DNA of 64,000 nt from Thermophilibacter mediterraneus (lineage in GTDB: Bacteria; Actinomycetota; Coriobacteriia; Coriobacteriales; Atopobiaceae), in assembly GCF_900119385.1 (NCBI RefSeq), contig NZ_FPKO01000009.1, positions 891,405 to 955,404 of the forward strand, in the 5' to 3' direction. How positions within the stretch are numbered: position 1 is the stretch's first letter; the number at the start of each line of letters is the position of its first letter. Below are positions 33,148 through 63,959 of this stretch, one piece after another. The position numbers and the translations under genes were made by a program. Under the pieces are notes generated by a model, which worked only from the letters and a program-made list of their open reading frames with translations, ran no database searches and had not been told where the DNA came from.

Positions 33148-33183
33148 GTCGCCTGTGTCCAAGGTTTCTAGATTGTCTTTTGA

Positions 33184-44034: not shown

Positions 44035-44970
44035 TTATCTCACGGGCGGAATCGAACACGTGGGTTCGGAAGCCATGCCAGAACACCAAGCCTTCTTTTC
44101 ATGGTCCCACCTGAGACCTAATGCGGTGCGGTCAAGAACAGGAGCAATCCATTCGGCGATCGCCTGTTCGGCGCCGGAGACATCGCATAGCCCCTCCGGA
44201 AATCCGCATTCTCTAGCCATGGAATTAAAGGCCTCGAAGCCGGACGTCTTCCAGCTGTCAGGAACTCTGAAAAGATTTATCTCTCCCATGTGACGAAGAA
44301 GGATCTCCCGAGAAAGCCTCTCGGAAAGGATGCTCGCATCAATCTCATCCCAGAGCATTGAGGCAACTAGATCAACGAGATCCTTTACGCGGGAGGAGGG
44401 GCGTCCTCCGTACATCTGCATTGTTGCGCAGACCTTGTCCGCCACCCTCTCCTCGATAAGCTGAACGGCATAGTCGAATGTTATTAGCCCGTCTATATCG
44501 AGCCTGCTCGCCGGTGAGACAAGTTCATAGCTCTCCGGAGGAGTCTCATCGACAACAAGGTCAACGTTTATCCGATTAAGCGGTCTTACGCCGCCAAGGA
44601 TCGGGATGAATTCGACTGCGTAGCCCGTGCGGTACTCCTGAGAGACTGGAATGGGCGTAGCGCCAGCAAAGCGGAATTCTATGAAGTCATGCAAGTCCTT
44701 CGACGCGAGGCGCTTCAACTCCTCAAGGGCCTCGTCGACTTGAGTCATCCTGCCAACAAGATCGATGTCACGGCTTTCGCGGGACACAAGTCGCCTTGCT
44801 AGTTGACTTTGCCCTCCCTTCAAGACGAAAGACGGCTCGTCCTCGCTAAACACCCTGCAAAGTAGCCTGTCGAGATAGAAGCTTTCAACCGCCCTCCCGG
44901 TATCGCGCTGGGACTTCCTGGCAGCGGCATTAACCCTTTGGGTCAAGGATCTGTAGCCTGTTGCTATCAA
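44035..44970 (-). CDS. abiEii: AbiEii-type nucleotidyltransferase toxin
   Basis: A 311-aa member of the AbiEii/AbiGii toxin family. Nucleotidyltransferase motifs: FVLKGGQSQLARRL and ESRDIDLVGR (the D-x-D metal pair), then INVDLVVDETPP, and ERVADKVCATMQMYGGRPSSRVKDLVDL with the catalytic Lys and Asp. Such toxins block growth, by tRNA or nucleotide modification, upon phage infection. It lies 18 bases after the AbiEi-like gene in the same direction, the standard antitoxin-toxin order. Lower GC than the flanking genes suggests acquisition. Confidence 0.87.
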   Translation of the reverse strand: MIATGYRSLTQRVNAAARKSQRDTGRAVESFYLDRLLCRVFSEDEPSFVLKGGQSQLARRLVSRESRDIDLVGRMTQVDEALEELKRLASKDLHDFIEFRFAGATPIPVSQEYRTGYAVEFIPILGGVRPLNRINVDLVVDETPPESYELVSPASRLDIDGLITFDYAVQLIEERVADKVCATMQMYGGRPSSRVKDLVDLVASMLWDEIDASILSERLSREILLRHMGEINLFRVPDSWKTSGFEAFNSMARECGFPEGLCDVSGAEQAIAEWIAPVLDRTALGLRWDHEKKAWCSGMASEPTCSIPPVR

Positions 44971-44988
44971 GAGCCTTCGCCTCCATCC

Positions 44989-46080
44989 TCATTTTCTATC
45001 AGCGCTCGCACCGCTCTCCCGAACGGCGCTAATTACGGGTCCTATCGTCTTCAGGACTTCGTTCATCCTCTCGATCACCCCGGAATCAAAAAGAGGGGCG
45101 ATCGTTTTTTGACAGCTCTCAATCACCTGCAGCATTGCCGGAGATATACACGCAGCTTCCTTCCACTCGTCCAGGCGCTCACCATCAACGGCCCTCATCG
45201 ACGAGACGAGAGACTGCGCGCTACCAAAGAGATGTTCGTCGATGCCCGCCCGTGGAATTGCTTGCACGGCGGCGCTCAGATTGTCGATCATCTCTGAACT
45301 GGGAAGGCTGCGGGAAGCTTCTTGGGCAGCTGAAATGACCGAAAGATTCTCCGAAACAATACTCGTCAGGCGCCTCCACTCCTCAGAGGATTCCAGCGCA
45401 GCCGTAAGGTTACTTAGTGATTTGCTCACGAGAGGCACGGTGGCGTTGCGGTCTATGAGGCTGGACGCCATGATGTCACCCGAATCGTACCCATGCCGCT
45501 TGGAAAGAGGCTCAAGCAGGATAGCCAGCCTCCTTCTGTCGAGCACATGACCCTTCGAAGCCATATCAGCAATGGCATCGTCCACCAGGCTCGGATCCTC
45601 GTTCGTTCTCAGGAGATCGGCAATCATTCGCTCCGGTCGAACGACGGGAATTCCCATCTCGAACGAAACGTCCGAAACATTTATTGTGTCGCGAACAAGC
45701 TCCATGTCACGCCTTGTCGATCGCTTGCCGCTCATCACAACAAAGCAGTACGGAGACTCGTAAAGGTCTCCGTACCCGTAGAGCCTCGCAGCTGTCCGAC
45801 CGGTTGCAACTGCGTCAAGGCGGTTCTCTACAACCCGCTCCCTTACGTACTTCTTGGGGTATAGCGACATCCATGCCGCCTTGAGCATGGCGTGGTCCGT
45901 TTCGCTACCAGAAGTGACTTGGTAGACGCCGTAGCACATGGGCTCCAGCCTTCCATCGGACACCATTCGGCTAAGCTGTGTCCTGCTGCTGCCCACGCGA
46001 ATTGCCTGGGCAGCAGTAATCAGCCCCCACTGCTCCGATGCGAGCTCCTCGAGTCTACGTATGTTGCCAAGTCTACTCAT
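44989..46080 (-). CDS. abiEi: AbiEi-type antitoxin/repressor
   Basis: A 363-aa protein. Residues 1-60 are an AbiEi_4-like winged helix (EELASEQWGLITAAQAIRVG, SRTQLSRMVSDGRLEPMCYGVYQV), followed by the antitoxin domain to about 190 (VSFEMGIPVVRPERMIADLL). The C-terminal half (about 195-363) is an extra helical region longer than most AbiEi proteins. The ATG at 46080 sits six bases after a TACAAT -10 box, so the mRNA is probably leaderless. Expected to repress its own operon and neutralise AbiEii. Confidence 0.85.
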   Translation of the reverse strand: MSRLGNIRRLEELASEQWGLITAAQAIRVGSSRTQLSRMVSDGRLEPMCYGVYQVTSGSETDHAMLKAAWMSLYPKKYVRERVVENRLDAVATGRTAARLYGYGDLYESPYCFVVMSGKRSTRRDMELVRDTINVSDVSFEMGIPVVRPERMIADLLRTNEDPSLVDDAIADMASKGHVLDRRRLAILLEPLSKRHGYDSGDIMASSLIDRNATVPLVSKSLSNLTAALESSEEWRRLTSIVSENLSVISAAQEASRSLPSSEMIDNLSAAVQAIPRAGIDEHLFGSAQSLVSSMRAVDGERLDEWKEAACISPAMLQVIESCQKTIAPLFDSGVIERMNEVLKTIGPVISAVRESGASADRK

Positions 46081-46086
46081 GGCATA

Positions 46087-46092
46087 ATTGTA
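46087..46092 (-). promoter_or_regulatory. -10 box of the abiE operon, leaderless start
   Basis: TACAAT (46092 down to 46087 on the minus strand) ends six bases before the abiEi ATG. Surrounding repeats TTGTACA and TTGTAAA are plausible AbiEi operator half-sites. No strong -35 seen. Confidence 0.5.
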
Positions 46093-46222
46093 CACATATT
46101 TGTAAATAAATTCGCCTCAACATCAGAACATAGGAAATACTCGAAAGTGCCCCAACGTCAAAACCGGCTCTGCCGCCTCTCTCAACCTCCCAAATTAGGA
46201 CTCTTTTAAAAGGAGACAACAC

Positions 46223-48889
46223 ATGACAGCTTGCACCAACAACGGGGGGAGCAGGGTCCGTCGCGCCGTCACCGCGGCGCTCGTCGGCGTCCTCTCCGTC
46301 GGCGCGGCCCCCATGGTCGCGCTGGCGACCGGCGCCGCCCCGGCGTCCGGCGACGTGATCCTCCAGGCCGACACCAGCAACACGGTCTGGAACGGCACCG
46401 TAACCTATGAGGGCGAGGACACCTACGTCTACAACGGAGACCCCCAGGGTATGGTGGCGGTCAGCATCAAGCCCTTCGGCGGGGCTGAGCCGGAGGACCT
46501 CGAGTACCATCCCGCCGGCGCTGCAACCGAGAACGGGTCGTACTACTACTTCTACGTGAAGATCGACACCTCGAGCTCGACCGTGTGGGAGAGCCTTGAC
46601 GGCGAGCCGGTCAAGTACGAGAACGCCGACGGTCGTCAGGTCAACCTGAAGGGCGAGTGCGTTAACAAGCCGACCGATCCCGGCGAGTACGCCGTGGTCG
46701 TCGGCCTTAAGAACGGCGGATGGGAGCTCAACAAGAGCGCCGAGCGCTTCGTCATCACCTCGCGCTCGCTCGAGGGCGCCCAGATCGTCGAGGACGAGAA
46801 CGTGGACGACACCGAGTTCATGTGGAACGGCACCCTGAACGGCAGGACCGTCTCCGAGCTCAAGAAGCACATGAACGTCTCGCTCGACGGCGTCATCCTC
46901 GACGAGGGGGAGGACTACGACGACATCGAGTTCTACGAGAAGGGCGCCACTACCCCCCTCAGCAGGACTGACCAGCTCGAGCCCGGCGTCACCTACACCG
47001 CAAAGATTGTCGGCAAGGGCGCTTACGATTGGGGCAACGCGGAGACCCTCGATTTCACGCTCCAGCCGCTCGACCTCGATGAGGCAACCGTCACCGGCAA
47101 GGTTGGGACCGTCGTTCTCAGCAACGCCAGCGAGATTTTCGACGTCGTGGACTCCATCAACGGCGTGACGGTCCAGGACGGCGGCGGCGACGGCGTCATC
47201 GGCGACAAGTACTTCGGTGTCTCCTTCGAGAAGAGCCCCTCGGATGACGGCATCGCAGGAGATACCGGCCGCTACACCTTCACGGTCGTTCCGACAAAGG
47301 AGGCCACAGACAAGGGCTGGGTCACCGGCTCCAAGACGGTCGAGGCCATCTACGCGGACCACGTCGTGAACATCGTGAACGCCTCGGACGCTGACGGTGA
47401 TGGCGTCTACTACTACGACCTCACCAACGAGGATGCCGAGCCGTTTGATGTTGAGGATGTCACCGCGACCACCGATAACGGATACAGCGTTGACGAGGAT
47501 GACGTGAGCCATGTCGTCACGGCGGAGGATGGTTCGGTTGCCACCGACGCCGACCTTGCCAAGGGCGGCACCTGGTATGTGACCTACAGCGTCTATTACC
47601 GTGACAGCAACGGCAGCCTCATCGCCGGCAACAAGACCTACAAGGTCGTGAACTCCTACGACGACATCACCGATGAGCACGTCTACGTCACCCTCGACGG
47701 AAAGAACGTCGAGGGCTCTACCGAGGTGACCTACGACGGGTCCGACTGGGCGGACAAGCTCAAGGTCATGGTTGCCAAGAACGACGTGACCCTTGCCGAG
47801 GGCACCGACTACACGGTCGCCATCAAGGACGAGGACGGCAAGACCGTCGACTCCGTCGTCGACGCCGGGGAGTACACCGTCGTCGTGAAGGGTATCACCT
47901 TCACGAACTCCATCAGCTTCACCATCGAGGTCAAGCCCGCCGTTGTCGAGTGGCTCTTCCCGAACTACAACGTCGTGACCGACGACACCCTTGAGAGCGG
48001 CAAGTACGCCGGCTTCTTCGCCTACACGGGCGACGTCATCGACGCCACCTACACCTGCGTCGACGACAAGGGCAAGGTCATCGAGGTCCCCGCGAGCGCC
48101 TTCACCATCACCTACACCCTCGACGGCAAGAAGGCCGAGCTCAAGGAGGCTGGCGAGTACCTCGGGACCATCAAGGACACCACCGTCAACGACAACTGGC
48201 AGGTCGGCAACAAGTTCGGTGTCCAGAAGATTGTCGTCTCCAAGGACAAGGTCTTCGCCGACGTCAAGAGCAGCGACTTCTTCGCGCAGGCCATCTACAC
48301 CGCGAGCGCACAGGGCTACATCGGCGGCATCGGCGGCACCAACCTCTTCGCCCCGATGAACCAGCTCACCCGCGCCGACATGGCGTGCGTCCTCTACCGC
48401 ATGGCCGGCGGCGAGATCAGCGCCTCCCTTGAGGACCTGACCAACGAGAACATCGCGACGATCTCGCAGTTCTCCGACGTCGACCCGCACGCCTACTACG
48501 CCAAGGCGGTCGCCTGGTGCGTCGAGATGGGCGTCGCCAACGGCTACGGCGACACCTTCGGCTCCGCCCGCAGCATCTCCACCGAGGAGTTCGTGACCAT
48601 GCTCGCCCGCTACGCGGCCAAGATGGGCGACGACACCTCCGTCGACACCGACGCGGTGCTCGCAGCCACGCCCGACGGCGACCAGGTCTCCGGCTACGCC
48701 CGCGACGCCGTCGCCTGGGCCGTGGAGAACGGCTACATCGCCAAGGGCGGCAACCTCATCGCCCCGCAGGAGAGCGTCGCCCGCTGGCGCACGGTCATGA
48801 TCGCCGTGGACTACCAGCCCGAGCAGCTCCACGTCATCGGCAACCCCGACGCCACCAAGCCCGGCACCGGGGAGGATGCCAGCAAGTAG
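46223..48889 (+). CDS. SLH-anchored variable surface protein C
   Basis: An 888-aa paralogue with the shared signal peptide (one change, SRVRRAV instead of SRARRAV) and the GAAPASGDV exit. The variable beta-rich region to about residue 670 contains the recurring pattern GTDYTVAIKDEDGKTVDSVV then DAGEYTVVVKG. Three SLH motifs from about 676: VFADVKSSDFFAQAIY with GYIGGIGGTNLFAPMN, DVDPHAYYAKAVAWCVEMG with GYGDTFGSARSISTEEF, and YARDAVAWAVENGYIAKGGN. Divergent from the abiE operon; its own promoter is not clear (AATACT near 46136 is a weak candidate). The pair partner is D. Confidence 0.9.
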   Translation: MTACTNNGGSRVRRAVTAALVGVLSVGAAPMVALATGAAPASGDVILQADTSNTVWNGTVTYEGEDTYVYNGDPQGMVAVSIKPFGGAEPEDLEYHPAGAATENGSYYYFYVKIDTSSSTVWESLDGEPVKYENADGRQVNLKGECVNKPTDPGEYAVVVGLKNGGWELNKSAERFVITSRSLEGAQIVEDENVDDTEFMWNGTLNGRTVSELKKHMNVSLDGVILDEGEDYDDIEFYEKGATTPLSRTDQLEPGVTYTAKIVGKGAYDWGNAETLDFTLQPLDLDEATVTGKVGTVVLSNASEIFDVVDSINGVTVQDGGGDGVIGDKYFGVSFEKSPSDDGIAGDTGRYTFTVVPTKEATDKGWVTGSKTVEAIYADHVVNIVNASDADGDGVYYYDLTNEDAEPFDVEDVTATTDNGYSVDEDDVSHVVTAEDGSVATDADLAKGGTWYVTYSVYYRDSNGSLIAGNKTYKVVNSYDDITDEHVYVTLDGKNVEGSTEVTYDGSDWADKLKVMVAKNDVTLAEGTDYTVAIKDEDGKTVDSVVDAGEYTVVVKGITFTNSISFTIEVKPAVVEWLFPNYNVVTDDTLESGKYAGFFAYTGDVIDATYTCVDDKGKVIEVPASAFTITYTLDGKKAELKEAGEYLGTIKDTTVNDNWQVGNKFGVQKIVVSKDKVFADVKSSDFFAQAIYTASAQGYIGGIGGTNLFAPMNQLTRADMACVLYRMAGGEISASLEDLTNENIATISQFSDVDPHAYYAKAVAWCVEMGVANGYGDTFGSARSISTEEFVTMLARYAAKMGDDTSVDTDAVLAATPDGDQVSGYARDAVAWAVENGYIAKGGNLIAPQESVARWRTVMIAVDYQPEQLHVIGNPDATKPGTGEDASK

Positions 48890-49355: not shown

Positions 49356-52019
49356 CTACTTGTCCTCGGCGTTGTTGCCCTGGTCGAGGATGGTGTCGAG
49401 CTGCTCGGGCTGGTAGTCGACGGCGATCTTGATCGCGCGGGCGCGGTAGATGGTGCCCTGCGGGTCGATCAGGTTGCCGTCCTTGGCGATGTAGCCCTCG
49501 GAGACGGCCCACGCCACGGCGTCGCGGGCGTAGGAGCTGACCTCGTCGCCGTCGGCGACCGCGCCGAGCACGGCGTCGGTGTCGGCGGAGGTGTCGGTGC
49601 CCATCTTGGCCGCGTAGCGGGCGAGCATCGTCACGAACTCCTCGGTGGAGATGGCGCGCTCGGTTCCGAAGGTGTCGCCGTAGCCGCGCACGATGCCCAT
49701 CTTGGTCGCCCAGGCGACGGCCTTGGCGTAGTAGGCGTTCGGGTCGACGTCCTCGAACTGGGAGATGTAGGAGATCTCCTCGTTGGTCATGCCCTCCTGG
49801 ACGGTGCCGATGGAGCCGCCGGCCATGCGGTAGAGCACGCAGGCGAAGTCGGCGCGGGTGATGTTGTTCATCGGGGCGAAGAAGTTGGTGCCGCCCACGC
49901 CGCCGATGTAGCCCTGCTGCTTGGCGATGCCGACCTCCTCGGCGTACCACGCGTCGTTGGGCACGTCGACGAAGGAGGAGGCATCGGTGACCTCGATGAT
50001 GCCTGCGAACGAGGGGCCACCGGTAAAGTTGTCGGCGTCAAGGGAGATGCCGGTGATGGCGTACTGGCCCTTGGCCTCCAGGGCGACGCCGGCCGCGAGC
50101 CCGTCGCCCTGCTTGTCGTAGGTGACCTCGAACTGGTCGGCCGGGACCGTGTAGGTCTCGCCGTCGTCGCCGATGAACTCAAACTCGGGGGCAATAACGT
50201 CGTCCGTGAAGGAGTAGTAGTACGTGGTGCCCTGGACGGCGAAGGCGTTGGAGGGCGTGGCGGTCTTGAGCTCGCGCTTGCCAATCTCGATGAAGTACTG
50301 CCCGACCTCGTCGAAGGTGACGCCCTTGACGGTCACGCGGTAGTCGCCGGCGTCAACGATCTCGTCGGTCTCGACCCACTTGCCGGTGACGTCCTGCTTG
50401 GCGATGGAGACGGTGTAGTCGGTGCCCTCCTCGAAGGTCTTGCCGCCGCGGGTCACCTTGACGGAGAGCTTGGACGAGAGGTCCGTGCCGTTGTAGTCGG
50501 TGCCCGTGTTCTTTGCACCCTGCTCGATGTTGCGGCCGTCGAAGGAGACCTGCATGTCGTCGGCCTCGACGACGCCGTTGGTGTTGTAGACGGTGAAGGA
50601 GTAGAGGTAGACGTAGCGCTGGCCGTCAACCTTCTTGTTCACGGTCACGGTGACGTCCCACCTGCCGGCCTTGGTGAGGTCCTCGACGGTGCCGCCCTCG
50701 ACGGAGACGTCGAAATCGACATCCTCCCCGTTGGCCTTCGCCTCGAGCTCGTCGACGTCGAAGTACGCGGGCTTCGCCTCGGTCAGGTCGACCACGTAGG
50801 CGCTCGTGCCGTCGGCAAGGAGCTCGCTCTCTGCCGTGAACCAGCTCTTGAGGTCAGGATTGCCATCATACCCGACCGTCGCGAAATCGTCGCCGACGAG
50901 CACGGTCACGGTCGCCTCGCCGGTGACGTAGTCGCCGTACTGGTCGTCGTGGTCGCTCGAGGAGATGGTGTAGGTGTAGACGCCGTCCTCGGGGCTGCTC
51001 ACCTTGGCGGAGAGACGCGTCCAGTCAAGGGAGGTAACCCCGTTGATAGAGCTGATGATTGCACTGAGGTTGTTAGTCAGGGGGGCGGTTCCGGTGTCGA
51101 TGGCCCCAACGCTCACGATGGACGCGCCGGTAAGGTTGAGCTGGCCGAAGGTGAAGCTGAGGGTCTTCTTGACGCCCGCGTAGGCGTTCTCGCCGACGAC
51201 CTCGACGTTGTAGGTCTTCCCGGGGACAAGAGCGGTGCCATGCCCGGCAATGTCAACGTTCGAGCCCTCCTCGGTGACCTTCCCAAAGCTGTAGTCCCAC
51301 TCCGTGGAAAGGTGGTCGGAGTCGCCGTGCTTGACGAGGGCAACGCCGTCAATCGAGACGCCCATCTTAGAGAGGATGTCATCAACGCTGGCGGTCGCTC
51401 CGTCGTACGCGAAGGTGGTGTCCTCGACGTCGCCGTTGTCGAACAGCTGCGCCTCGTCGAACGAGCCGTTCACGACGGTGAAGGTGTCGGCCTTGGAGAC
51501 GTAGTAGTCGAAGCCGCTGGTAGCAGCGCTGTAGTGGCCGACGACGACGGCGTAGAGGCCGGTCTGCTGGGTCGGGTCCGCGACGACGGTTCCCCTGACG
51601 ATGACGTCGTCGCCGTCGTCGTCATCATAGGTGACCTCGCCGTTGACGACGTCAGTCCCATTGTTGTCGATGAGTACGTAAGCGTAGTAGTAGTGATCGT
51701 CCTGGAGGCTGATCGAGCCGTCGTTCTGCTCCAGGTCGGTGATGGGGTCGACGTTGTTGTCGGGGACGACCTTGGTCGGCACGAGGTAGTCGCCGCTCTT
51801 GTAGAGGAAGCTGTCGCCGGGCTCGCCGCCCTTGTACTCGACCTTGGCGTTCTCGAACGGAACGTTCTCGCCGGCCTGGAGGCTCACGTCGCCGGACGCC
51901 GGGGCGGCGCCGGTCGCCAGCGCGACCATGGGGGCCGCGCCGACGGAGAGGACGCCGACGAGCGCCGCGGTGACGGCGCGACGGGCCCTGCTCCCCCCGT
52001 TGTTGGTGCAAGCTGTCAT
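49356..52019 (-). CDS. SLH-anchored variable surface protein D
   Basis: An 887-aa paralogue, convergent with C. Its first ~48 codons are almost the same as those of E (GAAPASGDVSLQ exit). The variable region contains GTDYTVSIAKQDVTGKWVET then DAGDYRVTVKGVTF. SLH motifs from about 681: FVDVPNDAWYAEEVGIAKQQ with GYIGGVGGTNFFAPMN, DVDPNAYYAKAVAWATKMG with GYGDTFGTERAISTEEF, and YARDAVAWAVSEGYIAKDGN. Just upstream of its shared 5' block is a truncated winged-helix fragment (52064-52262) rather than a normal promoter region. Confidence 0.9.
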   Translation of the reverse strand: MTACTNNGGSRARRAVTAALVGVLSVGAAPMVALATGAAPASGDVSLQAGENVPFENAKVEYKGGEPGDSFLYKSGDYLVPTKVVPDNNVDPITDLEQNDGSISLQDDHYYYAYVLIDNNGTDVVNGEVTYDDDDGDDVIVRGTVVADPTQQTGLYAVVVGHYSAATSGFDYYVSKADTFTVVNGSFDEAQLFDNGDVEDTTFAYDGATASVDDILSKMGVSIDGVALVKHGDSDHLSTEWDYSFGKVTEEGSNVDIAGHGTALVPGKTYNVEVVGENAYAGVKKTLSFTFGQLNLTGASIVSVGAIDTGTAPLTNNLSAIISSINGVTSLDWTRLSAKVSSPEDGVYTYTISSSDHDDQYGDYVTGEATVTVLVGDDFATVGYDGNPDLKSWFTAESELLADGTSAYVVDLTEAKPAYFDVDELEAKANGEDVDFDVSVEGGTVEDLTKAGRWDVTVTVNKKVDGQRYVYLYSFTVYNTNGVVEADDMQVSFDGRNIEQGAKNTGTDYNGTDLSSKLSVKVTRGGKTFEEGTDYTVSIAKQDVTGKWVETDEIVDAGDYRVTVKGVTFDEVGQYFIEIGKRELKTATPSNAFAVQGTTYYYSFTDDVIAPEFEFIGDDGETYTVPADQFEVTYDKQGDGLAAGVALEAKGQYAITGISLDADNFTGGPSFAGIIEVTDASSFVDVPNDAWYAEEVGIAKQQGYIGGVGGTNFFAPMNNITRADFACVLYRMAGGSIGTVQEGMTNEEISYISQFEDVDPNAYYAKAVAWATKMGIVRGYGDTFGTERAISTEEFVTMLARYAAKMGTDTSADTDAVLGAVADGDEVSSYARDAVAWAVSEGYIAKDGNLIDPQGTIYRARAIKIAVDYQPEQLDTILDQGNNAEDK

Positions 52020-52063
52020 GTGTTGTCTCCTTTATGGGGGAAGGGGGAGGAGACACGGCGCGT

Positions 52064-52262
52064 GTGTGTCCTCCTGTCCTCCTCGGACCTGCTCCGCCTC
52101 CTGGAGTCCACGCCCCAGGGGCTGACGTCGGCCGACGTCATGGGCCTGTTCGGCGTCTCGGAGAGGGTCGCCCAGGGCAGGCTCCGCAAGCTCCTCGCGC
52201 CCGGCACGGGGGTCGAGAGGACCCGGGAGGGACGGTCCTTCAGGTGCCGCCTGACATGCTGA
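52064..52262 (+). pseudogene. C-terminal fragment of an AlbA_2-type protein
   Basis: The frame encodes LLRLLESTPQGLTSADV, FGVSERVAQGRLRKLL and a final RSFRCRLTC. This aligns closely with the C-terminal winged helix of the complete AlbA_2 gene at 61861-63306 (LLRLLEETPGGLTSADV, LGVSERVAQARLREL, SLRYRLGD). Everything upstream of this domain is missing and the break lies about 30 bases from the 5' block of SLH gene D. It reads away from gene D, just as the intact homologue reads away from gene F. Confidence 0.8.
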
Positions 52263-52351
52263 CGCCGAACGCTTCGCCGAATGCCCGAACGATTCGCTCG
52301 AGCGCCGAACGGCTGCGCCCGGCCCGAAGCCCGCCCGGCCCCGCCTCGCGT

Positions 52352-52459
52352 CATGTGAAAAAGATGCACCCCGTGCAAATCTTTCACATGTTGCGCCGGC
52401 AGGGCGGCTGCTTCGCTTATCATGTGAAAAACTCGCACCATATGCAGATCTTTCACATT
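52352..52459. promoter_or_regulatory. two 39-bp palindromes upstream of the DUF4143 ATPase
   Basis: CATGTGAAA ... GCACCCCGTGC ... TTTCACATG (52352-52390) and CATGTGAAA ... GCACCATATGC ... TTTCACATT (52421-52459) are two dyads with the same half-site CATGTGAAA, 69 bases apart. A TATCAT -10-like box (52419-52424) overlaps the second. They probably bind a dimeric regulator of the downstream gene. Confidence 0.7.
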
Positions 52460-52469
52460 GGGGGGCACC

Positions 52470-53747
52470 GTGATCGTCAGGCAGAAGTACCTCGACCAGC
52501 TCCTGCGGTTCCGCGACCGCGACCTCGTCAAGGTGGTCACTGGGGTGCGCCGCTGCGGCAAGTCCACGCTGCTGGACATGGCCCGCGAGGCGCTCGCGGC
52601 GGAGGGCGTGCCCCGGGAGAGGCTGCTCACCTTCAGGATGGAGTCGATGGAGTTCGACGGCATCGGCGACTACCGCGACCTCTACGCCATCGTCCGGGAG
52701 CGCGCCGAGGGGGTGGAGCGCCCCTACCTGTTCTTCGACGAGCTCCAGCAGGTCGAGGGCTGGGAGCGCGCGATCAACTCCCTCAGGGTGGACATGCCCT
52801 GTGACATCTACGTCACCGGCTCGAACGCGTTCCTGCTCTCGAGCGAGCTGGCGACCTACCTGTCGGGCCGCTACGTGGAGGTGGGGATGCTGCCGCTCAC
52901 CTTCGCAGAGTACCTGGACTTCCGCGGGGCGGAGTGGTTCGGGGCGGACGGGCCGCGCGCGGACCTGGTCGCGCTCCCGGACGGGGGGTACGGGTCGCTC
53001 CAGGCCATGCTCGACCAGTACCGCCGCTTCGGGGGCATGCCGTTCCTCGCGCTCTCGGAGCCGGACGTCGCGTCCCACCGCGCCTACATGTCCTCGCTCT
53101 ACGACACCGTGATCGTGCGCGACATCCTCGAGCGCGACCGCAGGCGCGGCAGGCGACAGGTCACCAACGCCGACCTGCTGCGCCGCCTGTGCGCCTTCCT
53201 CGCGGACAACGTGGGCAACGAGAGCTCCGTGAACTCCATCGCGGGGACCATCCGGGCGGAGGGGTCGCGCGTCGCGAACGACACGGTGGACGCCTACATG
53301 GGGGCGCTGCGCGAGGCCTACCTCTTCTACCGCGCCAAGCGCTACGACATACGCGGAAGGGAGCTGCTCAAGACGGGGGGCAAGCACTACCTCGTGGACG
53401 TAGGCCTGAGGAGCTTCCTGCAGGGCTACCGGGACGCCGACCAGGGGCGCGTCTTCGAGAACGTGGTCTACCTCCAGCTGCTCTACGACGGCTACTCCGT
53501 GTCCGTGGGCAGGCTCCGCGCCGGCGAGGTCGACTTCGTGGCGACGAGGGGCGACGAGCGCCTCTACCTCCAGGTCACCGAGGACATGACCGACCCCGCG
53601 ACCATGGAGCGCGAGCTGGCGCCGCTCAGGGCGGTGCGCGACTCCTACCCCAAGGCCGTCGTCGTCATGCGCGGGAGCTACCCGACCGACGTCGACGGCA
53701 TCAGGATCGTCCCCGCGGCGGACTTCCTGCTCCATCGCAGACGGTAG
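52470..53747 (+). CDS. AAA_14/DUF4143 ATP-binding protein
   Basis: A 425-aa protein of the widespread AAA_14 plus DUF4143 family. Walker A is TGVRRCGKSTLLDM (residues 29-42), Walker B YLFFDELQQVEGWE, sensor-like VTGSNAFLLSSELATYLSGR. The C-terminal DUF4143 (about 200-425) ends in a nuclease-like fold element (GEVDFVATRGDERLYLQV resembles the E...D...Q/K pattern of PD-(D/E)XK-like domains). Function unknown for the family. GTG at 52470 follows GGGGGGCACC; two palindromes lie directly upstream. It is convergent with the RloB-type gene. Confidence 0.85.
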   Translation: MIVRQKYLDQLLRFRDRDLVKVVTGVRRCGKSTLLDMAREALAAEGVPRERLLTFRMESMEFDGIGDYRDLYAIVRERAEGVERPYLFFDELQQVEGWERAINSLRVDMPCDIYVTGSNAFLLSSELATYLSGRYVEVGMLPLTFAEYLDFRGAEWFGADGPRADLVALPDGGYGSLQAMLDQYRRFGGMPFLALSEPDVASHRAYMSSLYDTVIVRDILERDRRRGRRQVTNADLLRRLCAFLADNVGNESSVNSIAGTIRAEGSRVANDTVDAYMGALREAYLFYRAKRYDIRGRELLKTGGKHYLVDVGLRSFLQGYRDADQGRVFENVVYLQLLYDGYSVSVGRLRAGEVDFVATRGDERLYLQVTEDMTDPATMERELAPLRAVRDSYPKAVVVMRGSYPTDVDGIRIVPAADFLLHRRR

Positions 53748-53767: not shown

Positions 53768-54403
53768 CTAGTCCCCCGGAGGCAGCCCGAGGGCAGATCT
53801 GACGAAGAGGTCGACGTCGGTCATGGGAGACGTCGTCCCGTCCCTCCGGTTGCGATCCCTCACCCTGCCCGCGTTCCTCAGCGCGGCGTCGAGCCTGTCC
53901 GCGAGCCCGGGGCCGACGGGCCTCTTGTTGTCCCGGCTGTACGACGGCATGAACTCCCTCAGGTCCCTTATGACCTCCTCGGCGCTTCCGTACTCGCGAG
54001 TGGTGTACCGATAGTGGAGGAGCAGCCAGTACTCGAAGCACGGGTCGCTCATCGCCACCCGTATCCCCTCCTTCCGAGCGAGGGCGATCGCCTCCCCGAT
54101 GCCGGCCTGAGGATGCACCGCCCCCTCGGTGTCGAAGAGGACCCACCATTCGTCCACCAAGGGCTGGCTGCCGCTTCTGGCGGCGCGCGCGTTCTCGCAC
54201 CGCTCCCTTACCGCCGCCCTGACGAGCCCGAGCGGGTTGGATTTTCCCGCCCTGACGTACCTCAGCGCCCCGGACGGCACCCCGCGCATCAGGCGAACCC
54301 GCTCAACGTACTCCGGCTCCGTGACCGTACCCTCGGAGACGAAGGCGACGACTCTCCCCGGGCTTCTGCGCGCGGCTCGGCGTCGAAGGCTCGACCTCGC
54401 CAT
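53768..54403 (-). CDS. RloB-domain protein (AbiLii-like)
   Basis: A 211-aa RloB-family protein: VAFVSEGTVTEPEYVERV at residues 19-36 and SDPCFEYWLLLHYRYTT near 125 are the hallmark motifs of this Toprim-like family. It follows the AAA ATPase with one base between stop and start, and its ribosome site (GGGAGGGGAAG) lies in the end of the ATPase gene. AAA ATPase plus RloB pairs occur in restriction-linked and abortive-infection loci (AbiL-like). Role here: probable nuclease or effector subunit. Confidence 0.8.
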   Translation of the reverse strand: MARSSLRRRAARRSPGRVVAFVSEGTVTEPEYVERVRLMRGVPSGALRYVRAGKSNPLGLVRAAVRERCENARAARSGSQPLVDEWWVLFDTEGAVHPQAGIGEAIALARKEGIRVAMSDPCFEYWLLLHYRYTTREYGSAEEVIRDLREFMPSYSRDNKRPVGPGLADRLDAALRNAGRVRDRNRRDGTTSPMTDVDLFVRSALGLPPGD

Positions 54404-54404
54404 C

Positions 54405-55688
54405 CTACTTCCCCTCCCGCGCGGGCGCGAAGCGCCGCGGGACCACGGGGACGGCGGAGTACCGGCCAGCAAGATAGCCCTGCTCAAGCGCCTCCCCCTT
54501 GCGGGGACCATAGTCGGTGAGCGGGACCACCTCCGTGGACCCATCGCGCTTGTCGACGAGCCACACCTGGTCGCGCCTCAGGAGGTCGTCGCTCAGGGGG
54601 CGCGTGTTGTGGGCGCTGAACAGGAGCTGGGCGTCGTTCGGGTTCGAGTCGGGGTCCTGGAAGCTCCGGATGAGGGCTGACAGGAGGGTGGGGTGCAGGG
54701 AGGCGTCAAGCTCGTCGACCACCATCGTCGCCCCGCCCTCGAGGGCGACGGCGACGAAGCCGCTCAGGTCGAAGATCCGATTGGTGCCGTCCGACTCCCT
54801 CCCCATGTCAAATGTCGCCATGTCGCCCCGTGGCCCCCTGTGGCCGAACACAACCGACTTCATCGTGTCGGGCACCATGTCGACAGGGATGCTTGCCGAC
54901 CGCGCTATGGCGACCCTGTCGTCCTCCCCGATCTCCCTTCTCTCGACGGAGACGTCGGAGATGCCCAGGTCCGCCGACCTCACCATCTCGCGGATGAACG
55001 ATCTGGCGAAGTCGGACCCCCTGTTCCCGTCGATTATTTCCCCGGAGAACGGGAAGTCGTTGCTCCCGCTCGGCCCCCTGTTCAGGTACACGAGCCCGTC
55101 CCTGAACCATTCGTGCACGGGAGCGATGGCGTCGTGCGACCTGAGGTTCTGGTAGTTCGCCAGGAAGGAGAGAAGCGGGACGTTGTCGTTGAGGAGCTGG
55201 AGGGCGGCCTTGGGGACGGAGACGTGCGTCGACCCCTGAACCCCCCTCGGGCCGCGCCGGAACCAGAGCTGCTCCTTTCCCTTGGGATATGCGCGGAGGT
55301 CCTCCCCGGTGATCGCGTAGGCGGTGTGGGAGAGCTCGTAGCGGTAGCGGACCCCCCGCGCGACGAACTCGACGAGGTAGCGAGTCGGCCTCTTGGGGCT
55401 GTCGCGGTCGAGGGCGAACGGGGCGTGGGGCAGGGGCGCGCTGGGCCCCTTGCCGTAGGAGCCGAGGATGAGCTCCCGGAGGTTGCGAATGGCGCCCAGC
55501 AGCGTCGACTTACCCGCGGCGTTTGGGCCGTACACGGCGAGGCACCTCAGATAGCTTAGCCCGGAGAGGCCGGGGAGGGACCTCTCGATCAGCCCTCCGT
55601 CCCCGTCCTTGAGGCGAGAAGCAACGAAGGATATCTCCTGATAGTCCCTTATGGACCCGTAGTTCTCCACCCCAAATCGTATGAGCAT
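54405..55688 (-). CDS. AAA15-type ATPase (RloA/AbiLi-like)
   Basis: A 427-aa ATPase of the ABC-like AAA_15/AAA_21 class. Start FGVENYGSIRDYQEISFVAS (matches the FrRNFrSI-type beginning of this group), Walker A VYGPNAAGKSTLLGAIRN, ABC-type Walker B AVALEGGATMVVDELDASLHPTLL, and switch His in LLFSAHNTRPLSDDLLRRDQ. ATG at 55688 has GGAGGCAGCG; an upstream start at 55718 adds ten residues. Forms a two-gene operon with the RloB-type gene, a layout found in putative phage-defence systems. SLH gene E starts divergently 240 bases away. Confidence 0.86.
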   Translation of the reverse strand: MLIRFGVENYGSIRDYQEISFVASRLKDGDGGLIERSLPGLSGLSYLRCLAVYGPNAAGKSTLLGAIRNLRELILGSYGKGPSAPLPHAPFALDRDSPKRPTRYLVEFVARGVRYRYELSHTAYAITGEDLRAYPKGKEQLWFRRGPRGVQGSTHVSVPKAALQLLNDNVPLLSFLANYQNLRSHDAIAPVHEWFRDGLVYLNRGPSGSNDFPFSGEIIDGNRGSDFARSFIREMVRSADLGISDVSVERREIGEDDRVAIARSASIPVDMVPDTMKSVVFGHRGPRGDMATFDMGRESDGTNRIFDLSGFVAVALEGGATMVVDELDASLHPTLLSALIRSFQDPDSNPNDAQLLFSAHNTRPLSDDLLRRDQVWLVDKRDGSTEVVPLTDYGPRKGEALEQGYLAGRYSAVPVVPRRFAPAREGK

Positions 55689-55927
55689 CGCTGCCTCCTT
55701 CGCATCCATCTCATTCAATCTTAGTTCGATATTCGCGAGAATTGTTCGAAAAGTGACTTGAGTGGAGCAATTATTCGCGCAATCGGAACATGCTCATCCA
55801 TTCCCCGGGATGCGGAGCTTGTTCGATCCGGCGGTTGCGCCCAGTCGACCAACGTGCATGGGCTCCGCCGGCTGGGGCGCCTCGTCGCGCCGCCCCAGTC
55901 CCCTTCCCCCTTAAAAGGAGACAACAC

Positions 55928-58660
55928 ATGACAGCTTGCACCAACAACGGGGGGAGCAGGGCCCGTCGCGCCGTCACCGCGGCGCTCGTCGGCGTCCTCT
56001 CCGTCGGCGCGGCCCCCATGGTCGCGCTGGCGACCGGCGCCGCCCCGGCGTCCGGCGACGTGAGCCTCCAGGTCGCCACCGACCCCTCCTCCGTCGAGGA
56101 CGGCACCATCGTCAGGTTCGAGGGCTCCCGCCAGGAGGGCGACACCTTCGTCGCCAACGGCAAGGGCCAGGGCCTTATCCCGACCAAGGTCCAGCCCTTC
56201 GGCACCACCGACATCAACTCCCGTGTTAACGTTGTCGACTGGGTCGTCTACAAGCTCTCCGACTCCACCGGCAACCTCTCGACCAGCGCAACCGACGCCA
56301 CCAAGGGCCGCACGATCGACGGCAAGGCGTTCTACTACGAGACGAAGCTCAGCGCTGAGACCCTTCCTACTGAGGTCGGCGAGTACGCGGTCTTCGCTAA
56401 CGTGATGGTCGGCTCCACCAAGGTCTATGTCAGCGAGGGCGCCACGTTCTCCATCGAGGCTGCCAAGCTCTCCGATGCGACCCTCTACCAGGTGAACGCG
56501 TCCGACACCGACGACCTCTCGGACACCACCTACACCTTCAACACGGGTAACTGGCAGCTCACCAACAGGGCTACCTCTGACCTTGGCAACGTTGCGGGCT
56601 TCAACCGCCTCGCCCTCAAGGTCGGCAACACCCAGCTCGACATGAGCCAGTTCACCTTCGACTACTACACGAAGGCCGGCAAGCAGGTTGCGGGCAACGA
56701 CATCGTGAACGCCGGCGACTACTACGTCATCGTCTCCGGTATCTCCACCGGTGACTACAAGACCCAGAAGCAGCGCTTCGACTTCACCATCGCCCCGTAC
56801 GACGTCGCGCAGGCGAACATCGTGGCAGAGGACAAGGTGTGGAGCGTCACTGGCGGCGACACCACCAAGACCACGCTCGCGACCATCGATGGCGTGCCGT
56901 ACGGCAGCAGCTGGCTGAGCCCCTTCATCTCGCTCGACTACCCGAACGTCGCGACGACGACCGGCCCCGCCTCCGTCACCGTCAACGTGAACGCTTCCGC
57001 GCTCAAGGATCCGTCCGGCAGGTTTGACTACACGGGCTCCATCATCAACTCCCAGGTGGTCAATTACAACGTCGTCAGCGCCATCGCGACTACGGATGCC
57101 TTCTACGGCACGACCAACTTCTCAGCCAAGACGATCGCGACGGACTACTCCGACGAGGAGACCGAGGTCTTCGACGCTTCCAAGGTGTCGGTGTCCTACA
57201 CCAACCCGAAGGACGGCAAGAAGGTCGACACCGACGCCTACACCCTGCGCGTCGTCAACACCGTGACCAACGAGGTCGGCGGCGTCGAGATGCTCGCCAA
57301 CTCCGGCTCCTACACGGTGGAGGCCGTCCTCGACTCCGAGGCCCTCGACTACGCAGTCGCCGGTCGCAGCGCCCAGATGAAGGTCACCGTCACCAAGGGC
57401 GCCATCGCCTCCACAGACGTCGCGTTCGCCTGGAACGATGACATCGTGACCACGGGCGCCATCTCCGACCAGTACGTCCCCGGCCGCGACCTTCTCGACG
57501 AGATCACCGTCACCGTCAGGACCGACAACGGTGTCGTGCCCTCCTCCGACTACGAGGTCGTCGTCACCGACGCCAAGGGCGACCAGGTCGACGAGATCGT
57601 CGAGCCCGGCACCTACCGCGTCCAGGTCGTCGCCGACGGCTACACCATCAGCGAGACCGACAGCCGCCTGAGCGTCACCGTCGCCAAGCGCAACCTCGCC
57701 GCCACGGGCCTCCAGGTCCGCGCCAAGAACACCCTCAACTGGGAGTCCGACGACAACAACAACGGCAACATCGACAGCTCCGAGATTCACCGCGCCCTCG
57801 TCTACACAGGCGATGTCCTCACCCCGTCCTACGAGTGGTCGCTCGACGGCAAGACCTGGTACGACCTGCCCGCCGACGAGGTTACCCTCACCTACTTCAA
57901 GAAGGGCGACACCAAGGAGGTCGACCTCAAGAACGTCGGGTACTACGACGTCCTCGTCGAGGCCAAGGGCGGCTCCGCTCACTACACCAACGAGAAGAGC
58001 GGCGTCGAGGTCGAGGTGACCGACCGCAGGGTCTTCGCCGACGTCCCGAGCGACGCCTTCTACGCGCAGAGCGTGTACCAGGCCGCCGACCAGGGCTACA
58101 TCGGCGGCATCGGCGGCACCAACCTCTTCGCCCCGATGAACAGCATCACCCGCGCCGACGTGGCGTGCGTGCTCTACCGCATGGCCGGCGGCTCGATTGA
58201 GTCCAGCAAGGAAGACCTGACCAACGAGCAAATTGCCACGATCTCCAGGTTCATCGACGTCGACAAGAACGCGTACTATGCCCGCGCCGTCGCGTGGGGC
58301 GTCGAGATGGGCATCATGAACGGCTACGGCGACACGTTCGGCTCCGCCCGCAACATCACGACCGAGGAGTTCGTGACCATGCTCGCCCGCTACGCGGAGA
58401 AGATGGGCACCGACACCGCCGTCGACACCGACGCCGTGCTCGCCTCCGTCTCCGACGGCGACGAGGTCTCCGGCTACGCCCGCGATGCCGTCGCCTGGGC
58501 CGTCTCCGAGGGCTACATCGCCAAGGGCGGCAACTCCATCGCCCCGCAGGAGAACGTGGCCCGCTGGCGCACGGTCATGATCGCCGTGGACTTCCAGCCG
58601 ACCCAGCTGGACGTCATCACCGACAACCCCAACGCGGACACTCCCGGCACCACTGAGTAA
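55928..58660 (+). CDS. SLH-anchored variable surface protein E
   Basis: A 910-aa paralogue with the family signal peptide and GAAPASGDVSLQ exit. The variable region to about residue 695 includes SSDYEVVVTDAKGDQVDEIV then EPGTYRVQVVADGYTI. SLH motifs from about 701: VFADVPSDAFYAQSVYQAAD with GYIGGIGGTNLFAPMN, DVDKNAYYARAVAWGVEMG with GYGDTFGSARNITTEEF, and YARDAVAWAVSEGYIAKGGN. The end (YIAKGGN, QENVARWRTVMIAVDFQP) is nearly the same as in C, suggesting gene conversion. The frame extending back to 55790 lacks a ribosome site and signal-peptide logic and is rejected. Confidence 0.9.
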   Translation: MTACTNNGGSRARRAVTAALVGVLSVGAAPMVALATGAAPASGDVSLQVATDPSSVEDGTIVRFEGSRQEGDTFVANGKGQGLIPTKVQPFGTTDINSRVNVVDWVVYKLSDSTGNLSTSATDATKGRTIDGKAFYYETKLSAETLPTEVGEYAVFANVMVGSTKVYVSEGATFSIEAAKLSDATLYQVNASDTDDLSDTTYTFNTGNWQLTNRATSDLGNVAGFNRLALKVGNTQLDMSQFTFDYYTKAGKQVAGNDIVNAGDYYVIVSGISTGDYKTQKQRFDFTIAPYDVAQANIVAEDKVWSVTGGDTTKTTLATIDGVPYGSSWLSPFISLDYPNVATTTGPASVTVNVNASALKDPSGRFDYTGSIINSQVVNYNVVSAIATTDAFYGTTNFSAKTIATDYSDEETEVFDASKVSVSYTNPKDGKKVDTDAYTLRVVNTVTNEVGGVEMLANSGSYTVEAVLDSEALDYAVAGRSAQMKVTVTKGAIASTDVAFAWNDDIVTTGAISDQYVPGRDLLDEITVTVRTDNGVVPSSDYEVVVTDAKGDQVDEIVEPGTYRVQVVADGYTISETDSRLSVTVAKRNLAATGLQVRAKNTLNWESDDNNNGNIDSSEIHRALVYTGDVLTPSYEWSLDGKTWYDLPADEVTLTYFKKGDTKEVDLKNVGYYDVLVEAKGGSAHYTNEKSGVEVEVTDRRVFADVPSDAFYAQSVYQAADQGYIGGIGGTNLFAPMNSITRADVACVLYRMAGGSIESSKEDLTNEQIATISRFIDVDKNAYYARAVAWGVEMGIMNGYGDTFGSARNITTEEFVTMLARYAEKMGTDTAVDTDAVLASVSDGDEVSGYARDAVAWAVSEGYIAKGGNSIAPQENVARWRTVMIAVDFQPTQLDVITDNPNADTPGTTE

Positions 58661-59123: not shown

Positions 59124-61697
59124 CTACTTCTTCTCGGGGTCGAGGTTCGGGTTGTCGGCGAGGTCGCCGTCCAGCTGCTCGGGCTGGAAGTCGACGACCA
59201 CCTTGACGGCGCGGGCGCGGTAGATGGTGCCCTGCGGGTCGATCAGGTTGCCGCCCTTGGCGAGGTACTCGTTCTCCACGGCCCAGGCGACGGCGTCGCG
59301 GGCGTAGGAGCTGACCTTGTCGCCGTCGGCGACGCCGGCCAGGACCTCGTCGGTGTCGACGGAGGTGTCGACGCCGGTCAGCTTGGCGTAGCGGGCGAGC
59401 ATGGTGGCGAACTCCTCGGTCGTGATGGTGCGCGCGGAGCCGAAGGTGTCGCCGTAGCCGCGGGTGATGCCCATCTCGGTCGCCCACGCGACGGCCTTGG
59501 CGTAGTAGGCGTTCTTGTCGACGTCGGTGAACTGGGAGATGGTCTCCACGTTCTCGTCGGTCAGGTCCTCCTGGCTAGCGGTGATCTTGCCGCCGACCAT
59601 GCGGTAGAGGACGCAGGCGAAGTCGGCGCGGGTGAGGTCGTTCATCGGGGCGAAGAGGTTGGTGCCGCCGATGCCGCCGATGTAGCCCTGCTGGTTGGCG
59701 ACGTAGACCTCCTCGGCGTACCAGGCGTCGGCCGGGACGTCGGCGAAGACGGTGGCCTTGCGCACCTCGATGTTGCTCTTGGTGACGGTGGTCGGCTCGA
59801 AGTTGCCCTTCGCGTCGGACACGATCATGGTGACAGTGTAGGTGCCGGGCTCCTTGAGCTCCGCATCCTTGCCGTCAAGGGTGTAGGAGACGGTGTAGAC
59901 GTCGGTCGGGAGCGTGGCCCAGACGTCATCCTTGGTGTTGGCCTTGCCGTCCTTACCGGTGGAGACCATCCACTCGTAGCCGGGGTTCTGGATGTCGCCG
60001 GTGTAGGGCAGGAAGACGTGCTCGTCGTTGAACGTGCCGAGGACGCGTACCGTGTTCGGGAGAAGCGTCACAGGGTCAACCTTGAAGGTCGCGACAGCGC
60101 CCTTGTTGATCTTGTAGGTGTCGCTCTCGACGGAGATCGTGTAGATCCCCTGGTCGACGATGGAGTCGACAGCCTTGCCGTCCTTGGTCACGATGACGGT
60201 GTAGTCCTCGCCCTCGGTGAGCAGGTTCTTGTTGGAGTCGTAAACGGTGACCTTGATGTCGTCGAGGAAGTCCTCACCGTTGTACTGGTTGCCGGTGAAG
60301 GAGTTCGCGGTGACGCCGTTGTAGGTGACGAGCATGGTCGCGTTCTGGACGACGCCGGAGACAACGGTGTAGGTCACGGTGTTGGAAGAGCCGCCATAGA
60401 CGTGCTCGGCAGCCTCGGCGTCGACCTTAACGGTAACCACCCAAGTGCCGGGGGTGTTGATAAGGGAGGTGTCGTTGGAGACCACGCCGGTCGCCTTGTT
60501 CATGACCTCGACGGTCAGGTACTCGGCAGGCACCTTCTTGCCGTCGTTGGTGGTCGCGTTGAGCTTGGAGGCATCGAACACGAAGTGGTTCTCGTTGGAC
60601 AGGTTGATGGTCCTGTCGGCGAGCGCCTGGTTGCCGTACTTGAAGCCGGTAGCGTCAACGACGTGGTCGACGACGTCGATGGTCGCCTTCGCCTCGTTGG
60701 CGATGGAGGCCTTGACCTTGTCAGAGACAGCCTCGCTGTCGGTCACCTTAACGGTGTAGTTGTAGGTGCCCTTCTCGAGGGCGACGCCGTCCTCGGCAAC
60801 AACGTCAAACGCAGAGAAATCAGCGCCGTCCCAGCCCTCGACGGAGCTGATGGTCGCCTCGTGACCGTTGTTATCGAACTTAATGGCGCTGCCGTTGAGC
60901 TTGACGACGGTCTTGGAGAGGTCGAACTGCTCAATCTTGAAGGAGACCTTCGCGCTGGAGTTGGCATAGGTGCTCACGCCGGTGATGACGGCGGTGTAGT
61001 CGCCGGCGAACTCGGGAGTCACCTCCTGGCCCTTGGCGTCGTAGCACTTGACGGTGTAGTCGGTGCCATAGGTAAGGGGCTTGCCGTCGAGAGCCACGCC
61101 GAGGTCGTTCTCGTAGAACGTCTGGCGCGAGCCGGTGTAGTTGAAGGTCGTGTCGGAGACGTCGTTTGCATCGCTGGCGTTCACGTCAAAGATGGTGGCG
61201 TCCTTGAGGGAGCCGTTGACGATCTTGACAGGGAGGTAAATCTTACCGCCCGCATAGGCGGGATCGGTAGAGCTGATGACGGCGGCATAGTTGTCCGCGG
61301 AAGCGGTAGTGATGTCAACGGTGCCGCTGACCTCGTTTGCGGTGACCTTGCCGTCCTCGTTAGAGTCACTCCAGTTGGCGAAGCTGACGGTGAGGCCAGA
61401 GGTGACAGGGGTACCGGAGCCGGTCACGACGCGCGTAACCTTGAGCTGGTTCTCAGCGTTGCCCGCGACGAACTCGATGTTGTCGAGGTCGAGCTTGACG
61501 TTGTTCTGGTCGTACGCGTCGACGACGTGGCCGAGGCTGAAGTCCTGGCCCGCAGTCGCCTGGAGCTGGACCTCGCCAGAAGGCGCGCCGGTCGCCAGCG
61601 CGACCATGGGGGCCGCGCCGACGGAGAGGACGCCGACGAGCGCCGCGGTGACGGCGCGACGGGCCCTGCTCCCCCCGTTGTTGGTGCAAGCTGTCAT
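59124..61697 (-). CDS. SLH-anchored variable surface protein F
   Basis: An 857-aa paralogue, convergent with E, with the GAPSGEVQLQA exit shared with B. The variable region includes GEDYTVIVTKDGKAVDSIV then DQGIYTISVESDTYKI. SLH motifs from about 649: VFADVPADAWYAEEVYVANQ with GYIGGIGGTNLFAPMN, DVDKNAYYAKAVAWATEMG with GYGDTFGSARTITTEEF, and YARDAVAWAVENEYLAKGGN. The start at 61697 is the shared family start; the open frame up to 62204 overlaps the divergent AlbA_2 gene and is spurious. Confidence 0.9.
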   Translation of the reverse strand: MTACTNNGGSRARRAVTAALVGVLSVGAAPMVALATGAPSGEVQLQATAGQDFSLGHVVDAYDQNNVKLDLDNIEFVAGNAENQLKVTRVVTGSGTPVTSGLTVSFANWSDSNEDGKVTANEVSGTVDITTASADNYAAVISSTDPAYAGGKIYLPVKIVNGSLKDATIFDVNASDANDVSDTTFNYTGSRQTFYENDLGVALDGKPLTYGTDYTVKCYDAKGQEVTPEFAGDYTAVITGVSTYANSSAKVSFKIEQFDLSKTVVKLNGSAIKFDNNGHEATISSVEGWDGADFSAFDVVAEDGVALEKGTYNYTVKVTDSEAVSDKVKASIANEAKATIDVVDHVVDATGFKYGNQALADRTINLSNENHFVFDASKLNATTNDGKKVPAEYLTVEVMNKATGVVSNDTSLINTPGTWVVTVKVDAEAAEHVYGGSSNTVTYTVVSGVVQNATMLVTYNGVTANSFTGNQYNGEDFLDDIKVTVYDSNKNLLTEGEDYTVIVTKDGKAVDSIVDQGIYTISVESDTYKINKGAVATFKVDPVTLLPNTVRVLGTFNDEHVFLPYTGDIQNPGYEWMVSTGKDGKANTKDDVWATLPTDVYTVSYTLDGKDAELKEPGTYTVTMIVSDAKGNFEPTTVTKSNIEVRKATVFADVPADAWYAEEVYVANQQGYIGGIGGTNLFAPMNDLTRADFACVLYRMVGGKITASQEDLTDENVETISQFTDVDKNAYYAKAVAWATEMGITRGYGDTFGSARTITTEEFATMLARYAKLTGVDTSVDTDEVLAGVADGDKVSSYARDAVAWAVENEYLAKGGNLIDPQGTIYRARAVKVVVDFQPEQLDGDLADNPNLDPEKK

Positions 61698-61860
61698 GTG
61701 TTGTCTCCTTTTAAGGGGGATGCAGTTCAGTCTCGTTGCAGTCCCCCTTTGGTGAAATCGTTGCCGTCTGGCTCTGCCGCCCGTGCGGTCATTCGACACG
61801 CCGTCACATTGGGCTAGGATTGTCCAATGGATGGTCTTCATCGTCGAGAGTGAGCAAGAG

Positions 61861-63306: not shown

Positions 63307-63313
63307 CCCCGGG

Positions 63314-63433
63314 GCGTTCGCGAAAATCGCGAAGCGTTCGCGAAAAGCCCGAAGGTTTCGCGAAAAACGCGAAGCGTTCGCGAAAGGCCCGAAGGTTTCG
63401 CGAAAAACGCGAAGCGTTCGCGAAAACCGCGAC
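63314..63433. repeat. six tandem 20-bp repeats with TTCGCGAA core
   Basis: Units alternate between GCGTTCGCGAAAATCGCGAA-type and GGTTTCGCGAAAAACGCGAA-type sequences, each exactly 20 bases and each centred on the palindrome TTCGCGAA. It begins eight bases after the AlbA_2 stop codon. It resembles an iteron array; binding partner unknown. Confidence 0.85.
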
Positions 63434-63940: not shown

Positions 63941-63959
63941 CCTTAAAAGGAGACAACAC

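Follow-up and report, generated by a model that had tools for sequence, protein, structure and literature searches.

Probable deletion and decay of an AlbA_2-type gene beside an SLH gene in a putative S-layer switch array of Thermophilibacter mediterraneus

The sap genes of Campylobacter fetus share 5' regions that occur in both orientations, and the slpA/slpB system of Lactobacillus acidophilus consists of two genes. An account of the C. fetus sap locus describes one conserved promoter for several S-layer genes, transcription limited to the sap gene directly behind that promoter, and, in one strain, a prophage inside the locus (PMC3887049). For Mycoplasma agalactiae, a report on vpma describes a family of surface-protein genes switched by Xer1-driven inversions, with the dedicated recombinase gene xer1 adjacent (PMC2268961). 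Active and silent slpA/slpB genes of L. acidophilus are interchanged by inversion, according to a title cited in PMC4902306. In titles and abstract openings, taken mostly from outside subscription journals, we found nothing that describes inversion of S-layer genes for Olsenella or Actinobacteria. Here we analyzed 64,000 nt of DNA (the window) from Thermophilibacter mediterraneus, which we take to be a gut bacterium of the Olsenella group. We conclude that a gene fragment beside SLH gene D probably arose by deletion and decay of an old AlbA_2 paralogue, within a putative S-layer switch array whose intervals would turn over genes.

In the T. mediterraneus genome, eight copies of a shared 5' block, alternating in strand, lie within a 37-kb stretch. 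Seven of these lie in the window, the seventh being cut by the window end (Table 1), and an additional weak match of 36 nt lies on another contig. The SLH cassettes are arranged as tail-to-tail pairs with head-to-head intervals between the pairs. The shared block is 122-134 nt long, and the copies in this genome have a mean pairwise identity of 98.3% (range 95.9-100; 98-100% when compared to block F). Among 25 blocks from five genomes, identity averages 97.1-99.5% within a genome versus 83% between genomes. Upstream flanks within one genome are unrelated (means of 8-19% by global alignment in the five genomes), and the SLH genes 160-460 nt in are strongly diverged (within-genome means of 32-38%, highest pair 65.5%). 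A block match of some kind is present in 20 of 40 genomes and a near-full-length match in seven; we treated these seven as block-bearing and set the short weak matches aside. One of them, G018, showed a single near-full-length block and lacks a promoter match. In T. mediterraneus (G000) and G016, the terminal block farther from the promoter is bordered on its outer side by a subtilase-SLH gene; in Olsenella sp. An293 (G009) such a gene adjoins a silent block. It may mark a fixed far end of the array.

Table 1. Features of the SLH array, in window positions unless a contig or extended coordinate is given
Feature	Position	Strand	Basis or remark
Promoter/leader of SLH gene A	33085..33196	+	TTGCGA-17-GATAAT at 33119-33147; single copy in each genome that has it
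5' block, SLH gene A (promoter-linked cassette)	33180..33309	+	block search
5' block, SLH gene B	39100..39234	-	block search
AbiEi/AbiEii toxin-antitoxin pair	44035..46095	-	Pfam and PADLOC; B-C interval
5' block, SLH gene C	46206..46335	+	block search
SLH gene D, taken as silent cassette	49356..52019	-	no promoter-like match upstream
5' block, SLH gene D (ribosome-binding site, start, signal peptide)	51907..52041	-	block search
Junction, block D to remnant	52042..52076		no match elsewhere on array contigs
C-terminal remnant (putative winged helix) of AlbA_2/HATPase-type gene	52077..52262	+	residues 421-479 of intact relative, then stop codon
3' non-coding DNA aligning with An285 (G008) remnant	52263..52361	+	sequence comparison
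AAA_14/DUF4143 ATPase cassette (gene 52458-53747)	52418..53747	+	Pfam, PADLOC, DNA homology
RloB/AbiLii-like gene	53768..54544	-	Pfam and PADLOC; D-E interval
AAA_21/AbiLi-like ATPase	54405..55718	-	Pfam and PADLOC; D-E interval
5' block, SLH gene E	55905..56040	+	block search
SLH gene F, taken as silent cassette	59124..61697	-	no promoter-like match upstream
5' block, SLH gene F	61585..61720	-	block search
Intact SLFN_AlbA_2 + HATPase_c_4 + C-terminal winged-helix gene, divergent from SLH gene F	61861..63306	+	Pfam, protein search, model
20-nt-spaced repeats (GTTCGCGAAA type) after AlbA_2 stop	63305..63432	+	sequence
Second remnant, last 76 residues of 222-aa gene	63643..63870	-	whole in An285 (88% aa identity); truncated end 66 nt from block G
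5' block, SLH gene G, continuing past window end	63937..64000	+	block search
Eighth block copy	69678-69804 (extended coordinate, beyond window)		block search
Subtilase-SLH genes (G000, G016, G009 as group)	L013:6413-8536, L074:3425-5455, L077:8760-10709	-, -, +	

Only gene A, of the eight SLH genes in this genome, has a sigma-70-type match within 250 nt before its start. The A promoter/leader has one match in each of 6 of the 31 genus genomes and none in the other 25, and the six promoter-bearing genomes are all among the seven with near-full-length blocks. Between five genomes the promoter flank is 82-98% identical, and the SLH bodies linked to the promoter are 25-32% identical to each other. 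In these five genomes, the best match of a promoter-linked body is never another promoter-linked body: that of Olsenella sp. An285 (G008) has its best match in a silent gene of G016 (48%) and that of An293 in a silent gene of An293 itself (65%), with G016 entered as the open body frame of its promoter-linked gene. In this G016 gene (L078:8111-10697, minus strand), the reading frame is broken directly behind the signal peptide; the break may reflect either an assembly error or an off state.

Taken together, the single promoter, the conserved promoter flank, the unmatched bodies and the near-identical blocks are good evidence that promoter and SLH bodies have been shuffled at the block, much as in sap. 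Loss of orthology through fast body evolution, instead of shuffling, is a weaker alternative. The first-pass annotation had proposed that flanks were exchanged at the 5' blocks, and the joining of a single promoter to unmatched SLH bodies suggests that they were. Inversion between blocks would be the switching step, and by analogy with sap only the promoter-linked SLH gene would be expressed. A dedicated recombinase at the array was sought in this genome and on the array contigs of four relatives, and none was found. The nearest tyrosine recombinase (PF00589) lies about 61 kb and the nearest serine recombinase (PF00239) about 194 kb from the array; neither type matched on the array contigs of G006, G008, G009 and G016, and An293 has no serine recombinase match. 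Because no recombinase matched at or near the arrays, we propose that homologous recombination over the block, not a dedicated enzyme, would carry out the exchange.

Many genes of the head-to-head intervals belong to toxin-antitoxin or candidate defense families, but some do not. Besides the AbiE pair, the B-C interval encodes DUF4869, DUF6020 and two proteins that matched no Pfam family. The AAA_14/DUF4143 gene between D and E matches PADLOC PDC-S01 (478 bits) and has 83-86% identical relatives in G008, G009 and G016, each with a different 5' neighbor; with each of the three, DNA homology of the cassette begins at 52418. A pair of palindromes that resemble each other (CATGTGAAA...TTTCACATG type) lies 5' of this gene at 52350-52455, and similar DNA is present in the G009 and G006 arrays. 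Intervals of the relatives contain AAA_14/DUF4143, AlbA_2, AbiE, AAA_21, RelA/SpoT with Panacea, and IS110 elements, and those of An285 additionally contain two further SLH genes. Four of the relatives' interval proteins that were scanned had no Pfam match.

Of the 26 visible silent blocks, 8 have a divergent AlbA_2 gene or remnant no more than 300 nt away, and a ninth silent flank holds the tail of an already counted AlbA_2 gene on the block's own strand. The 26 flanks leave out two G009 blocks with flanks beyond the contig end, the five promoter blocks, and four of the six strong G015 copies, which are on contigs outside those searched. Across seven genomes, 8 of 23 PF04326 matches fall in array intervals, none of them from G016, G008 or G018. 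The array makes up 1.5% of the T. mediterraneus genome; at an assumed share of 5%, the AlbA_2 enrichment has a binomial P of at most 1e-5, with the caveat that the matches are not independent. DUF4143 is commoner outside the arrays (12 of 70 matches in array intervals). From these comparisons we infer that interval genes are gained and lost and may have a role in defense.

The intact AlbA_2 gene begins 140 nt outside block F and encodes SLFN_AlbA_2 (PF04326, 42.1 bits; curated cut-off 25.3) and HATPase_c_4 (PF13749, 39.9 bits; curated cut-off 26) domains. Its AF2 model is weak overall (mean pLDDT 59.9, pTM 0.45), and we used the C-terminal domain alone: residues 422-479 are modeled as helix-helix-helix-strand-strand with pLDDT of about 77-86, after a linker (residues 410-419) with pLDDT below 50. 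The gene matches no PADLOC family at near full length. Since its PADLOC matches are partial and weak, to Argonaute-associated models at 37.4, 28 and 22.2 bits, a defense role for this gene is a guess. Fourteen phage records matched the protein; the eight listed are 29-35% identical, and six of the eight are Streptococcus satellite phages. With such relatives, a mobile accessory role is plausible. The repeats after the stop codon could be binding sites or a terminator, and a related GTTCG/CGAAC-type sequence lies 3' of the D, An285 and An293 copies.

The first-pass annotation had assigned 52064-52262 to the C-terminal domain of this protein and placed fragment and intact gene divergently beside SLH genes D and F. 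Coordinates and orientations confirmed the placement, and the searches bore out the assignment. In a whole-genome protein search with the intact gene as query, window 52077-52253 (G000:C1:943481-943657), a frame without internal stop, matched residues 421-479 at 64% amino acid identity (E = 7e-14). A tblastn search of the array contigs matched residues 432-479 to the remnant (E = 2.9e-10), and 52089-52253 aligns to 63133-63297 without gaps at 73% DNA identity. These E values and the ungapped DNA match rule out chance similarity. Recognizable homology starts at 52077 (protein) or 52089 (DNA), not at 52064. Because it covers residues 421-479 and the stop codon, a region modeled as a winged helix, the remnant would be the whole last domain with its stop codon. 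In an in-frame Pfam search with E up to 1, all matches listed were PF22168 (DIP2311-like C-terminal domain; 20.0 bits, cut-off 27) and PF08279 (HTH_11), both below cut-off, with no AlbA_2 or HATPase_c_4 domain. Plasmid records gave no DNA match to 52020-52420. By itself, the D fragment is an ordinary gene remnant.

Similarity between block D and the other copies stops, on the outward side, at 52033-52048 according to the copy compared, and at 52040-52041 for block F. The true break is somewhere within about 52042-52077, at most about 50 nt from block D, in keeping with the original description of a break close to the shared block. Because homology fades in the linker, its position can be bounded at best, and the alignment of D with F gave the ungapped match and this range but not the exact breakpoint. 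Nothing longer than 12 nt in the junction DNA (52042-52092) matches elsewhere on the array contigs; 52042-52076 is possibly decayed, poorly conserved linker-coding DNA. A chimeric flank at D was also considered, and comparison of junction pieces with the array contigs found no source.

The D remnant and the F gene have the same position and orientation beside their blocks, and related repeats lie 3' of both, as would be expected if the F flank had recently been duplicated and the copy had then suffered deletion and rapid decay. However, over 57 codons their identity is 71% in DNA and 65% in protein, and this 29% DNA divergence stands beside blocks D and F that are 98% identical; it rules out D as a recent copy of the F gene. 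Over the 39 codons comparable in four sequences, DNA identity is 68% for D-F, 77% for D-An285, 78% for F-An285 and 65% for F-An293. The An285 remnant is nearer to the intact F gene than the D remnant is, an order of divergence that is not firm given the short region compared (39-57 codons). The D and An285 remnants also have 3' non-coding DNA in common, which further argues against recent duplication, a reading we consider very improbable. Based on the D-F identity, the An285 similarity and the common 3' DNA, the D remnant is, as judged by divergence, an old AlbA_2 paralogue. Its frame of 66 codons has an in-frame GTG at 52062, nine nt after GGAGGAG (52046-52052). This open frame with its plausible ribosome-binding site, together with the weak match to the DIP2311-like C-terminal domain, could indicate a live winged-helix mini-gene that regulates D or its neighbors. 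That is improbable: in the An285 remnant, the stretch from the preceding stop codon to the start of homology lacks any ATG, GTG or TTG, the changes seen in D alone are not enriched at third positions, and no promoter-like match lies nearby. By codon position, D-unique changes number 8/5/4 and F-unique changes 4/3/9, a difference that is not significant (Fisher P = 0.08) and is at most suggestive of weaker coding constraint on the D remnant, the pattern that a loss of such constraint would produce.

The first-pass annotation had taken the truncation as the direct scar of a flank exchange between block D and block F or another block. A break within about 50 nt of block D fits this, as do the support for flank exchange at the blocks itself and the second truncation that faces a block, beside block G; the lost end faces the block in 2 of the 7 silent flanks of this genome (D and G). 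The intact 222-aa counterpart of this second remnant comes after an AAA_21 ATPase gene in An285. However, a crossover at the block should, by reasoning and not by test, swap the outside DNA as a unit and leave the neighbors whole. It would not remove 420 codons and the 140-nt spacer, so a deletion is required. The D and F flanks are, moreover, old paralogues, and among the flanks on the array contigs none matches the junction DNA. Remnants in the relatives also speak against a scar. The C-terminal remnant of An285 is about 4.7 kb from the nearest block, and a decayed N-terminal AlbA_2 piece with a TAG stop in G006 (L080:12135-12365, minus strand) retains the opposite end; a block lies 61 nt from this piece, and an intact copy roughly 8 kb distant shares 70% identity with it. 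We therefore regard the exchange scar as unlikely. Another block-adjacent AlbA_2 gene of G006 is divided over the ends of two contigs, the L079 end and the L080 start (C23/C17), where partly matching inverted sequences can be seen by eye, as if a repeated mobile element lay inside; a relative on G015 contig C220 runs through the split point. Insertion of the S-layer pair into an AlbA_2 gene, splitting it, was rejected: the 98.6-kb region of this genome contains no N-terminal partner piece, nor does the whole genome, in which the intact protein gives three matches only.

Deletion and decay of an old AlbA_2 paralogue is thus the likeliest origin of the D fragment. We propose that an AlbA_2/HATPase/winged-helix gene once stood divergently beside SLH gene D, as its paralogue stands beside F today. 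A search of the 31 genus genomes with the fragment found no undisrupted D locus, so the intact ancestral gene at D, which we infer, has no surviving counterpart among them; matches came from four genomes: T. mediterraneus itself, G009 (an intact gene of a different interval), An285 (the remnant) and, weakly, G005. A deletion would have removed roughly the first 420 codons and ended before the 5' block; the SLH cassette needs this block, and selection would therefore keep it. Other SLH cassettes would come behind the single promoter through recombination between inverted blocks, and the head-to-head intervals would form a bay in which toxin-antitoxin or defense-type and other genes arrive, decay and leave. 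The D remnant would be one product of this turnover. In our reading, interval deletions run up to, not into, blocks under selection. The second block-facing truncation, beside block G, makes it possible that the block itself promotes such deletions. The distance of the An285 remnant from any block and the N-terminal end kept in G006 suggest that decay is not tied to the block.

The setting of the D fragment matters more than the fragment. With defense-type genes lying between the cassettes, a connection of coat variation to phage defense suggests itself and can be tested. More tentatively, the S-layer array could double as a defense and toxin-antitoxin island in which AlbA_2-type, AbiE, AbiL-like, AAA_14/DUF4143 and RelA/SpoT-Panacea genes are gained and lost; they would tie coat change to internal phage defense, or penalize loss of the array through deletions between blocks on the same strand. 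We consider this extension possible and rather doubtful.

Several known systems offer points of comparison. Compared to proteins with SLFN_AlbA_2 and HATPase_c_4, the intact gene has both Pfam domains, whereas the fragment retains only the putative C-terminal winged helix. Like vpma, the array comprises a family of surface-protein genes, but no tyrosine or serine recombinase match lies within about 60 kb of it or on the array contigs of four relatives. It has eight SLH genes, in contrast to the two of slpA/slpB. Compared to C. fetus sap, the array comes from an unrelated bacterium, encodes SLH-anchored proteins, has a shared block of only about 122-134 nt, and is arranged in tail-to-tail pairs with defense-type genes between them. 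If switching is confirmed, the Olsenella group (Actinomycetota) would have an S-layer switch with a single promoter. As in sap, several S-layer genes carry 5' blocks that are nearly identical and point in both directions, and there is a single promoter copy; by this analogy, with no claim of homology, the Olsenella-group array may work like the C. fetus sap switch.
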